A stretch of DNA of 26,231 bases from a virus. The stretch covers positions 1 to 26,231 of the IMG/VR virus record IMGVR_UViG_3300031951_001059. The stretch is one strand, 5' to 3'. The position numbers and the translations under genes are program-made. Below, piece after piece: positions 180-12,530 of this stretch (the first letter of the stretch is position 1; each line of letters begins with the position of its first letter). The notes under the pieces are model-generated. The model saw only the letters and a list, made by a program, of their open reading frames with translations. It was not told where the DNA came from and searched no databases.

Positions 180-445
180 TGGTTATCCGCGCACCAAAGC
201 CCGTTAATGATAACGCCCGGCGGAAGCGGACACTTGATGAACGGCTTTTCCATCTTTCGCATGAAGTGAGCCAATTTCGGCTATGCGAATTTGAAACACC
301 AGCGGCACGGGCAGCTTATCTTACCGCGCTCGAAATAGAGCATGATCTGATAGCAGCGGAAATAGTCAAGACCATTCAGAAATATTTAAACTCTACGCAA
401 TACATCAAAAAGACAATCTTAAGGGAGAGAATGAATGGCAAATAG
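176..445 (+). CDS. hypothetical early protein
   Basis: This encodes 89 residues. The start overlaps the upstream stop by ATGA; a second ATG follows immediately. The N-terminus is basic (RAPKPVNDNARRKR). The rest is predicted helical and rich in Ala, Glu and Leu (FETPAARAAYLTALEIEHDLIAAEIVKTIQKY), so a small helical protein is likely. It overlaps the replication initiator gene by 11 nt, so the two are probably co-translated. No family recognised. Confidence 0.6.
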   Translation: MMVIRAPKPVNDNARRKRTLDERLFHLSHEVSQFRLCEFETPAARAAYLTALEIEHDLIAAEIVKTIQKYLNSTQYIKKTILRERMNGK

Positions 446-1355
446 TTGGTTTAGGCTTTGGCATGATTTTACCATAGACCCGAAATGGAGAGCGATTGCT
501 CACCTATCGGATAAACCTTTACACATGGTTCAGGCAATAGCTGTGTTTTTAATGTCCGATGCATCATGCAACGATATGCAACGCGGTGCAACGAAATGCA
601 ACGCTCTCACCGTTGCATGTGCAACGGGATGCAACGAAGCCGACGTTGCATCGGTGTTGCAAGCCATGCAGGGGATAATACTGGAAGGCAATGTTTTTAT
701 CAATTGGGATAAGCGCCAGCCTAAGCGGGAACGTGAACAAATACAAGGCTCTACAGCGCTAAGCTCAACTGAACGTTCTAGACTTCGTAGAGAGCGTTTA
801 AAGGATGCAACGGCAACCGATTATGCAACGCCATGCAACGCCCAAGATACAGATAAAGATACAGATAAGATAAGAAAGAATAATACCCCCTTAAGCCCCC
901 CAAGCGAAAAACCAGAACTCGAACTGGAAATCGAAACCCTAAAGCCAGTCGCCCGCAAGCGGGCTGTGAATCAAAATTTGATAACGCCTGATTTTCTGGA
1001 GTTTTGGGCTGCATATCCAACCGCAGACGGACGCAACAAGGGTGCAAGAGACCCTGCCGCCAAGAAGTACCACCAAGCCCTAAAAACCGCAACACATCAA
1101 CAGATTATGACCGGAGTGCAAAACTATGGAACCTTTATCGCAAGCACTGGAACGTTTAATGCAAACGCGAGCAGCTGGCTTAACCAAAAACGCTGGGCAG
1201 ACGACTACACCGTCACCCGAACCATCAACCCCGCAGCAGGATACGGCAGACAACCGCAACAGCGCCAAAGCGCATGGGAACGCACCATTGCAAGCGGCTT
1301 CCAAGCCGTCCAGCATTACCGTGGCAACGCCGAACTCGAAATGGAACATGCCTGA
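435..1355 (+). CDS. phage replication initiator, lambda O-like
   Basis: This encodes 306 residues, preceded by a strong AAGGGAGAG site. Residues 1-45 (SWFRLWHDFTIDPKW...) resemble the winged-helix N-terminal domain of phage replication proteins. A charged, low-complexity linker spans about residues 105-175. The C-terminal part (about 185-260: DFLEFWAAYP, then SSWLNQKRWADDY) matches the C-terminal segment common in phage O-type proteins. These proteins bind iterons at the origin and recruit the helicase loader. Like lambda O, the gene contains a dense repeat array inside its own coding sequence (567-651 and 806-840) followed by an A/T-rich tract. The next gene looks P-like. The family is assigned by pattern recognition, not by a database search. 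Confidence 0.72.
   Translation: MANSWFRLWHDFTIDPKWRAIAHLSDKPLHMVQAIAVFLMSDASCNDMQRGATKCNALTVACATGCNEADVASVLQAMQGIILEGNVFINWDKRQPKREREQIQGSTALSSTERSRLRRERLKDATATDYATPCNAQDTDKDTDKIRKNNTPLSPPSEKPELELEIETLKPVARKRAVNQNLITPDFLEFWAAYPTADGRNKGARDPAAKKYHQALKTATHQQIMTGVQNYGTFIASTGTFNANASSWLNQKRWADDYTVTRTINPAAGYGRQPQQRQSAWERTIASGFQAVQHYRGNAELEMEHA
567..651 (+). repeat. origin iteron array, main cluster (TGCAACG)
   Basis: The heptamer TGCAACG occurs at 567, 577, 587 and 597 (exactly 10 bp apart), then at 620 and 630 (again 10 bp). Its reverse complement CGTTGCA occurs at 611 and 644. The copies at 597/611 and 630/644 make two identical inverted repeats: arms ATGCAACG and CGTTGCAT (596-603 with 611-618, 629-636 with 644-651), each with a 7-bp spacer. 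Because 10 is not a multiple of 3, the copies fall in all three codon phases and encode different residues (CN, MQR, AT). The repeat is therefore maintained as DNA, not as protein. This is the expected form of an initiator-binding array on one face of the helix. Confidence 0.85.
806..840 (+). repeat. origin iterons, downstream cluster
   Basis: Three more direct TGCAACG copies lie at 806, 824 and 834, the last two again 10 bp apart. They sit about 155 bp after the main cluster and just before the A/T-rich tract at 844-885. Elsewhere in the 26 kb I see only scattered single copies (for example at 2479 and 2745), so the clustering is local to this gene. Confidence 0.75.
844..885 (+). other. candidate DNA unwinding element of the origin
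   Basis: A perfect 12-bp tandem repeat AAGATACAGATA occupies 844-855 and 856-867. It continues into an A/T-rich, nearly all-purine tract (AGATAAGAAAGAATAATA, 868-885). The tract begins 4 bp after the last iteron. In lambda, iterons within gene O are followed by an A/T-rich region that melts first; this arrangement is the same. The function is inferred from position and composition. The stretch also encodes the Asp/Lys-rich linker of the initiator. Confidence 0.6.
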
Positions 1356-10123: not shown

Positions 10124-11541
10124 CAAGGGTATCACTACCAGCAACCTACGCTAAAGGTTATTCCGCGCCCTTTAGTGTAGAATATTTGCAGAATATGATG
10201 GTTTTGGCGCGGGATATTAGGCAGCAAAATGCGCGGGTAGATTATGTTCTTATTAATACGCCGGGCTTGCGACTTTTTAGCAATTTAAATGCCAGTAATA
10301 ATGACGAGATAAGGGGCTTGCATGTTTGCGGCGGCGTTCTTTATGCAGTGGCCGGAACGTTGTTGTATAGCATTGATGTTAATGGCGCGGCAACGAGCAT
10401 CGGAACCATTAACGGCACACAGCCGGTAAAATTTGCCAACAACGGCACTTGGCTGGTTATAGTGGCCGACAGCGTGTCCTATGCTTACAATACGGGAACG
10501 GCGACTCTATCACAGATAACAGACCCTGATTTTATTACAGCAAGTGATGTTACCTATTTGAAGGGCTATTTTATATTCAAAAAAGCGGCACTTCCTAAGC
10601 AGTTTTTCATATCGAGCCTAGAAGACCCAACCAGTTTTGACGCCACCGATTTTGCATCGGTTAATAGCTCGCCGGGCAATATTACAAAGCTCTTTGGCGC
10701 ATATGGCGATTTGTGGATATTTTTGGAGGATTCCATTGAAATATGGCGCAACACGGGTTCGGCGGATTTTCCTTTTGAGCCAACGGACGGCGCGGCGCAG
10801 GAAATAGGATGCGGCGCTATGGGGAGCGTGGCAAAGATAGAACGCAGCATCTTCTGGCTAGGGAGTGATAATAGTATTTATCAAGCTAGGGGCTACCAAC
10901 CTCAGATTATAAGCACCGATAGCATTTCAAGAGAAATTGAGGCTATGAGTGATATTTCTGATGCTGTTGGTTTTTGCTATACCCAGCACAATAAGAAATT
11001 CTATGTTATTAGTTTTCCAACTGGCGGAAAAACCTTTGTTTTTGATTTAAGCACACAGCTTTGGCACGAACGCTCTAGCGAGGGCAGGAACCGATGGCTG
11101 GGAACGTATGGAGTAACGGCCTATAGAAAAACCTTTGTTGGCGGCTATGATTCAGATGTAATCTATCAGGTCGATATGGATTGGTATTCTGATAATGAAA
11201 ATGAAATTATTAGAATAGTGCAAGGATTGATGGTTCAGGATAATAATAACGCCGTATCGCACAATCAGGTTGAGTTATTATTTGAGACTGGCGTTGGAAC
11301 GGCATCCGGCAGTGCAACTGACCCGCAAGTAATGTTATCATGGTCAGACGATGGCGGCAGAATATTTGGCAACGAGGCGCAGCGGAGCGCTGGCTTAATT
11401 GGAGCCAATAGGACGCGCTTGCAATGGAATCGTTTAGGCCAGGCGGATAATGGGCGCGTTTATAAAATACGAATGTCCGCAAAGGTTAAGTGGGTTTTGC
11501 TTGCCGCCGATATGATTTTAGAGCAAAAGTATCCTAAATGA
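10120..11541 (+). CDS. packaged DNA stabilisation protein, P22 gp10-like
   Basis: This encodes 473 residues, nearly identical in length to P22 gp10 (472). The start overlaps the gp4-like stop (ATGA) and has AGGA upstream. The sequence is a run of beta strands with propeller-like repeats (GLHVCGGVLYAVAGTLLYSID, GTWLVIVADSVSYAYN, YGDLWIFLEDSIEIWRNTG, SIFWLGSDNSIYQARGYQPQIIST, KFYVISFPTGGKTFVFDL). In P22, a gp10 hexamer sits under gp4 and carries the needle and the tailspikes. Placement supports the same role here. Confidence 0.88.
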   Translation: MTRVSLPATYAKGYSAPFSVEYLQNMMVLARDIRQQNARVDYVLINTPGLRLFSNLNASNNDEIRGLHVCGGVLYAVAGTLLYSIDVNGAATSIGTINGTQPVKFANNGTWLVIVADSVSYAYNTGTATLSQITDPDFITASDVTYLKGYFIFKKAALPKQFFISSLEDPTSFDATDFASVNSSPGNITKLFGAYGDLWIFLEDSIEIWRNTGSADFPFEPTDGAAQEIGCGAMGSVAKIERSIFWLGSDNSIYQARGYQPQIISTDSISREIEAMSDISDAVGFCYTQHNKKFYVISFPTGGKTFVFDLSTQLWHERSSEGRNRWLGTYGVTAYRKTFVGGYDSDVIYQVDMDWYSDNENEIIRIVQGLMVQDNNNAVSHNQVELLFETGVGTASGSATDPQVMLSWSDDGGRIFGNEAQRSAGLIGANRTRLQWNRLGQADNGRVYKIRMSAKVKWVLLAADMILEQKYPK

Positions 11542-12530
11542 CCAATAGTATTACCGTATCCCCGCCGAAATCATCTGAGCCTGTAATAGATAGCGGCGGT
11601 TTGATATCAAAATCCTGGTATCGTTTTATGGTGGATTTATGGCGTCGCACAGGCGGCGGCGTTGATTTAATTTCAGGGACGGCAACGACTGTTGTTTTAA
11701 ATTCACCTACTGGCGCAATGATGTTATGGCAAACAGCAACTGCGCCCAGTGGTTGGCTTATATGCAATGGCGCGGCAGTAAGTCGAGCAACATATGCGGA
11801 TTTGTTTTCGGTAATAGGCACAACAAATGGCGCTGGTGATGGCAGCACCACATTTAATCTGCCTGATTTTAGGGATAGGCTTCCTATAGGGCTAGGCGCG
11901 TCTATTGCAACGAGCCTAGGGGCAACAGGCGGCGCAGCAACGCGAACAATATCTCAGGCCAACCTGCCTAATTATTCCCTTACAGTCACGGATGCCGGCC
12001 ACACCCACACGTTTACAGGAGCCGCGCACAATCACGCCATTACAGACGCTGGCCACACGCACACATTTACAGGAACCGCGCACAACCACACAAGCCCGTC
12101 ACACACGCACACAAGCCCGTCACACACGCATACAAGCCCAGCACACACACATACAAGCCCAGCGCACAGCCACGGGCCAACGGCTGGGAATTTTGTGCGA
12201 GACAACGCAGGGACAGAATACGTCAATACGGGCGGCAACAAAGGAACCGTGGTGGCGACCACGGCGACTACGGCTGTAACTATTAACAGCACGGCGGCAA
12301 CTATCAACGGCACGGCGGCAACTATCAACGGCACGGCGGCAACTATAGACAATGCAACCGCGACTGGCACAAACGCCAACAGCACTACTGGTATTACCAT
12401 TAATAACGCCACGGCGGGCGGCACAAATTCCACGTCAACCACAGGTATTACTGTTGCATCGGGCGGCAGTGGAGCGGCTTTAAATGTGATGAACCCCACT
12501 TTATGCGTGAACATGATAATCAAGATTTAA
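11538..12530 (+). CDS. tail fibre with collar domain and His-rich metal sites
   Basis: This encodes 330 residues; the start overlaps the previous stop (ATGA). The N-terminus includes SKSWYRFMVDLWRRTGGG, an attachment motif common in short phage fibres. A phage collar domain follows (about 60-150: GAMMLWQTATAPSGWLICNG, then TTFNLPDFRDRLPIGLG). Next are many His-Thr-His/His-Asn-His motifs (about 165-212), which in trimeric fibres bind a row of metal ions, then TAATING repeats (about 252-272), Asn/Thr/Gly-rich DNATATGTNANST, and an NVMNPTLCVNMIIKI end typical of collar proteins. It sits in the P22 gene 26 (needle) position, so it may be the tail tip rather than a side fibre. Confidence 0.8.
   Translation: MTNSITVSPPKSSEPVIDSGGLISKSWYRFMVDLWRRTGGGVDLISGTATTVVLNSPTGAMMLWQTATAPSGWLICNGAAVSRATYADLFSVIGTTNGAGDGSTTFNLPDFRDRLPIGLGASIATSLGATGGAATRTISQANLPNYSLTVTDAGHTHTFTGAAHNHAITDAGHTHTFTGTAHNHTSPSHTHTSPSHTHTSPAHTHTSPAHSHGPTAGNFVRDNAGTEYVNTGGNKGTVVATTATTAVTINSTAATINGTAATINGTAATIDNATATGTNANSTTGITINNATAGGTNSTSTTGITVASGGSGAALNVMNPTLCVNMIIKI
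12087..12173 (+). repeat. 21-bp tandem repeat encoding HTHTSP(S/A)
   Basis: About three and a half tandem 21-bp units encode HTSPS, HTHTSPS, HTHTSPA, HTHTSPA, HSH. Each unit gives one HxH motif, so expansion or contraction in frame changes the number of metal-binding steps in the fibre shaft. Upstream, a related longer pair (DAGHTHTFTG(A/T)AHNH) occurs twice. Confidence 0.85.
12291..12353 (+). repeat. 21-bp tandem repeat encoding TAATING
   Basis: Three consecutive 21-bp units (12291-12311, 12312-12332, 12333-12353) each begin with ACGGCGGCAACTAT and encode STAATIN/GTAATIN/GTAATID. They are in frame in the fibre gene. Near-identity of the first two units suggests recent slippage or unequal exchange. 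Confidence 0.85.

Follow-up and report, generated by a model that had tools for sequence, protein, structure and literature searches.

A probable intragenic phage replication origin whose iteron word covaries with two residues of the initiator encoded by the same gene

The DNA analysed here, which we call the window, is the entire 26,231-base IMG/VR record IMGVR_UViG_3300031951_001059, itself a genome fragment, on which Pfam and PHROGs profile searches identified P22-like coat, portal and terminase genes. Its plus strand carries at 435–1355 the gene for a replication initiator of 306 amino acids (aa), assigned through PHROGs profile matches (aa 1–125 to phrog_3729, E 5.9e-26; aa 115–291 to phrog_270, E 2.7e-19) and through relatives recovered by tblastn, which are annotated as replication protein O, primosomal protein I or replisome organizer; Pfam, RepA_N included, gave no match at E up to 1. 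An AF2 model of aa 1–145 (mean pLDDT about 89–98 across aa 11–90) places an N-terminal winged-helix-turn-helix (wHTH)-like domain at aa 4–94, encoded at 444–716 (+), with helices at aa 57–64 and 68–78 followed by the wing, and a separate helix at aa 111–127. Fold searches with the model returned generic winged-HTH proteins only, none significant among solved structures and with no RepA structure among the matches listed, and a profile search of solved structures gave nothing informative. On the same strand, 3′ of the initiator, ORFs 1126–1704 and 1637–2110 had no informative Pfam or PHROG match and ORF 1348–1704 had no phage homologue by tblastn; judged by position, a helicase loader may be encoded here. 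Elsewhere on the record, ORF 11538–12530 (+) encodes tandem SHTHTSP and ATINGTA peptide repeats and resembles a tail collar or fibre protein.

The initiator gene contains repeated copies of the word TGCAACG. The original prediction had described six direct copies, in two groups with exact 10-bp spacing, and two inverted ones, and we find them at precisely those positions. Group 1a (567–603, +) has copies at 567, 577, 587 and 597 and occupies the same place in relatives, and group 1b (620–636, +) has copies at 620 and 630; the step between direct copies is exactly 10 bp in both. The inverted copies (611–617 and 644–650, both on the minus strand) each form an arm of one of two inverted repeats, at 596–618 and 629–651, with the predicted 8-bp arms (ATGCAACG/CGTTGCAT) and 7-bp spacers. 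Absent from that list was group 2 (806–840, +), with three copies only, at 806, 824 and 834, two of them 10 bp apart, whose place is kept in relatives and in a more distant family described below. Group 1 repeats encode the loop at aa 45–56 between helices together with residues just past it, and group 2 repeats encode the end of helix 111–127 and the start of the following linker.

TGCAACG occurs 15 times in the record, compared with 6.8 times on average and 14 at most in dinucleotide shuffles, and 11 of the 15 copies lie inside the initiator gene, so the repeats are concentrated there. The copies within the gene fall in all three codon phases, as had been noticed. Synonymous-codon permutation of the gene, in which codons are shuffled and the protein is unchanged, left 2.7 copies on average and never more than 8 in 20,000 trials, where the real gene has 11; the protein sequence is therefore not the explanation of the repeats, and the constraint acts on the DNA, as originally proposed. 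Cumulative GC skew reaches its minimum at 1759, a value that is uninformative for the origin given that the record is a fragment.

Homologues gathered from viral contigs, GTDB genomes and named phages carry the same architecture. Identical 6-mers recur at lag 10 in 67 of 69 non-redundant initiator genes, with 548 such pairs versus 48 after synonymous permutation (~11x) and harmonics at 20, 21 and 31; the one-turn spacing, which the original prediction had singled out as unlike that of lambda, is thus family-wide. The places of the array are kept at gene nt ~128–160, where steps are often 10, 10 and 11 bp, and at ~386–430. The word itself varies between relatives and is always NNNACG (GTCACG, CGAACG, GTAACG, GGAACG, GCAACG). 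In a tally of 140 non-redundant genes that scored ACG-ending words only, the best word was GTCACG in 59, CGAACG in 42, GTAACG in 11, GGAACG in 9, GAAACG in 5, GCAACG in 4, GTGACG in 3, and ACTACG and AGAACG in 1 each, with no best word in 5; when every 3-nt ending was allowed, ACG again ranked first (109 genes). A helical-phase pair score of at least 3 was reached by 109/140 genes versus 31/1,400 permuted ones, and 90 of 98 genes use one word throughout the two groups, compared with a shuffled mean of 38 and maximum of 52. A parsimony tree requires 21 word changes, a figure that we do not count as evidence, most forks being unresolved.

Repeats of this kind might have no function and arise from protein repeats, codon bias or replication slippage; slippage does happen nearby, since the AT-rich coding tract alongside often contains tandem hexamers (lags 6, 12 and 18). 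This account is already contradicted by the permutation, lag and word-sharing results: the copies use every codon phase and the array is lost when synonymous codons are permuted, repeats persist at the same position and spacing in relatives while the encoded residues change, and groups about 200–250 bp apart switch word together. We consider it exceedingly improbable. Searches of sampled proteobacterial genomes with phrog_3729 and with alignment A6 found few full-length relatives; in 16 host genomes, all 44 triple GTCACG arrays lie inside the initiator gene, and the reversed pattern occurs 0 times in the same genomes. Permutation, family and host-genome results together thus uphold the original prediction of a DNA-level array against the challenges that sequence comparison can pose.

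A more distant family, comprising initiators (L294–L326) retrieved with the protein of cyanophage Cy-LDV1, which is 31–35% identical to the initiator of the window, keeps group 2, and group 1 is mostly missing there. Directly after group 2, the window carries an AT-rich and purine-rich tract with AGATAC/AGATAA repeats (844–885, +; AT 0.76 at 845–886), a candidate DNA-unwinding element. An AT peak at this place is family-wide (106/110 genes): in relatives, the ~40 bp after group 2 have an AT content of 0.69 and 0.61 versus about 0.42 farther on, are likewise purine-rich with AGATAA/AGATAC repeats, and exceed the gene's own synonymous-codon expectation for AT in 103 of 109 genes. Next in the window come paired C-tracts, CCCCC-TTAAG-CCCCCC (886–901, +); in many relatives this place holds C-tracts or a hairpin, with C-runs of at least 5 clustering 40–60 nt past group 2 and stems of at least 7 bp past the AT-rich tract in 37/111 relatives versus 64/1,110 permuted sequences. 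Recurrent hairpin loops, C(TAAC)G, C(TGAC)G and C(TAAA)G, sit on unrelated stems. The window past its AT-rich tract has the two C-tracts and no hairpin.

This order of elements resembles that of lambda ori, in gene O, and of the O genes of lambdoid and Stx phages, in which iterons also lie inside the initiator gene with an AT-rich tract next to them. The gene positions are close (nt 348–432 for the lambda iterons, nt 371–406 for group 2 of the window), and lambda has an imperfect palindrome past the AT tract where many relatives of the window have a hairpin (PMC7466680). On the other hand, lambda has four 18-bp iterons at 20–24-bp steps, whereas the window has a 6–7-bp core at 10–11-bp steps in two groups, one of them, unlike in lambda ori, within the codons of the DNA-binding domain. 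The two initiators are not detectably related, the family profile matching lambda O at E 0.15, which is not significant.

A different role for the repeats would be that of operators or copy-number control sites, acting through operon autoregulation or handcuffing, with the origin elsewhere. The inverted copies in group 1 (611 and 644), one of which many relatives retain at gene nt ~191, would suit such sites, and the scarcity of group 1 in the distant family indicates that it is dispensable for whatever group 2 does. Both groups, however, lie inside coding sequence downstream of the gene start, the AT enrichment past group 2 goes beyond codon expectation, and the iteron-then-AT order and gene position are near those of lambda; we judge this role distinctly unlikely. 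Very probably, the locus is instead an intragenic phage origin on the lambda plan, in which iterons follow one another at one-turn steps and the specificity helix can switch. The original prediction had placed a probable origin at 567–651, and its setting does fit an intragenic lambda-type origin; the putative core, however, is probably 806–885, because group 2 is what the distant family keeps while group 1 is mostly missing there.

Beyond the original prediction, we found that a particular protein helix and the word change together from phage to phage. Sorting the protein segment from the wHTH to group 2 by iteron word brought out a basic helix with the pattern R-X1-x-x-X2-R/K, encoded between the two iteron groups; in the window, the proposed specificity helix is TERSRLRRERL (aa 112–122; codons at 768–800, +), with X1 = S and X2 = R. 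Across the family, R-K-R-x-Q-R goes with GTCACG, R-A-K-x-W-R with CGAACG, R-V-K-x-[F/Y]-R with GTAACG or GAAACG, R-K-x-x-W-K with GGAACG, R-T-R-x-W-R with GTGACG, and R-S-R-x-R-R with GCAACG (the window and L006). Relatedness was controlled for by comparing disjoint gene pairs matched for identity (~70%) over the rest of the domain. X1 differs in 40/41 different-word pairs versus 4/41 same-word pairs (p 1.2e-17) and X2 in 37/41 versus 2/41 (p 2.2e-16), p-values that are indicative, as the pairs are disjoint but phylogenetically not fully independent. The lone different-word pair with a common helix is L227/L228, and L228 carries GGAACG too. With genes removed in which helix codons overlap an iteron, exact or with one mismatch, X1 still differs in 31/33 different-word versus 4/33 same-word pairs under one filter and in 16/16 versus 1/16 under the second. 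In these comparisons, the variable letters change in step with two helix residues, and the protein largely predicts its DNA site. In a two-residue reading, K..Q would specify GTC, A..W CGA, K..W GGA, T..W GTG and S GCA, with V or Q together with an aromatic residue or H giving GTA or GAA; the window's own class (S..R, GCAACG) rests on two close relatives together with S..F and S..S cases in the distant family.

We also considered the recognition helix of the wHTH as the reader of the word, the array being an origin all the same and the basic helix merely co-inherited. The modelled HTH at aa 57–64/68–78 would be a natural candidate, and alignment columns 67 and 68 are associated with the word. 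Their association weakened once iteron-encoded residues, inverted copy included, were skipped (column 68 p 0.002, column 67 p 0.02), whereas X1 and X2 remain near 1e-16 at matched identity and predict words in the distant family. We accordingly set the wHTH aside as the word reader, regarding this alternative as unlikely.

In the distant family, 21 genes have a single top word, and the X1/X2 rule gave it correctly for 21 of 21, compared with a mean of 10 and a maximum of 18 under permutation (20,000 trials). The assignments for S with F or S and for V/Q with H were completed after the distant-family data were seen; restricted to residue pairs already seen, the rule was correct in 15/15. Sets fetched later carried the predicted words, GTCACG in L353–L355 (K..Q) and GTAACG in L365–L366 (V..F). 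Exceptions are L033 (A..Y) and L311 (Q..K), both with GTCACG, and L368 has a similar helix without an array. It is likely that X1 and X2 form a two-residue code that sets the three variable iteron bases in a large, unrecognised group of phage initiators, so that origin and initiator switch together in one gene and the origin is predictable from the protein.

The covariation is indirect evidence for binding of the repeats by the initiator. We propose that copies of the initiator bind to NNNACG words (GCAACG in the window) set roughly one helical turn apart, with the basic helix of aa 111–127 (R-X1-x-x-X2-R/K) contacting and reading the NNN triplet and invariant parts of the protein reading the constant ACG that follows. 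The near-one-turn spacing suggests that neighbouring initiators would stack on one face of the DNA as a filament. Group 2 (806–840), adjoining the AT-rich tract, would then nucleate melting of 844–885 and helicase loading, and the upstream group (567–650), in the loop codons of the DNA-binding domain, could be an accessory assembly or regulatory site that strengthens or regulates this process.

Intragenic iterons as such are already known from lambda, Stx phages and pSK41 (PMC7466680, PMC5703833). A published parallel is Salmonella phage L, whose gene 18 contains 11-bp repeats, TGTCCAACGGA, already proposed as an origin within the initiator gene (PMC8022706): their core, CCAACG, is also NNNACG and recurs at one-turn spacing, and we found an AT-rich tract and a TAAC-loop hairpin after the repeats. 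Phage L differs in having one clustered repeat region, with no helix code reported, where the window family has two separated groups, and its initiator shows no significant protein similarity to the profile of the window family. The RepA_N-type Rep of pSK41, with an N-terminal DNA-binding domain, has its Rep boxes within the rep gene (PMC5703833); the iterons of characterised RepA_N replicons, by contrast, are for the most part semi-palindromic and converge on a poly-A tract (PMC7145576). In Vibrio PLE, RepA has undergone repeated swaps of specificity, and its DNA-binding domain covaries with the origin (PMC8263062), although PLE iterons are intergenic and ~30 bp long and the switching is described as a whole-domain swap, not as a change of two helix residues. 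SaPI Rep recognises short iterons through a dedicated domain (PMC7581432), but this Rep is also a helicase, its DNA-binding domain is C-terminal and its origin is downstream of rep, unlike the intragenic array of the window. In the open literature that we searched, we found no description of a two-residue helix code; as far as that literature shows, three things are new here: how widely the one-turn NNNACG array occurs, that its word switches in concert, and that the word is associated with two helix residues.

The family bears on the wider question of how replication initiators can acquire a new origin specificity while staying functional throughout. Its DNA site and the reader of that site share one gene, the switch comes down to two residues and three bases, and natural variants number in the hundreds, which makes the question directly testable with natural proteins. 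Word switching might possibly be selected by incompatibility between co-infecting phages, for whose replication incompatibility the code could provide a basis; for PLE satellites, the proposed selective force behind such swaps is a nuclease directed at the origin (PMC8263062). The rule also offers a sequence-based means of locating probable origins in many uncharacterised phages and prophages.

Several minor observations accompany these results. Small-loop hairpins lie 30–70 nt after group 2 in L047, L067, L208, L209, L213, L214, L219, L227, L228 and L282, and gene 18 of Salmonella phage L (L284), an initiator gene unrelated to these, also has a hairpin with such a loop. In the records of Escherichia phage 204576 (L370) and Pseudomonas phage PACT201 (L371), the initiator frames look frameshifted, likely through sequencing error, and the GTCACG arrays are intact. 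The triple GTCACG array with 10/11-bp steps, specific to the initiator gene in the host genomes G001–G016, could serve as a DNA-only finder for such prophages.
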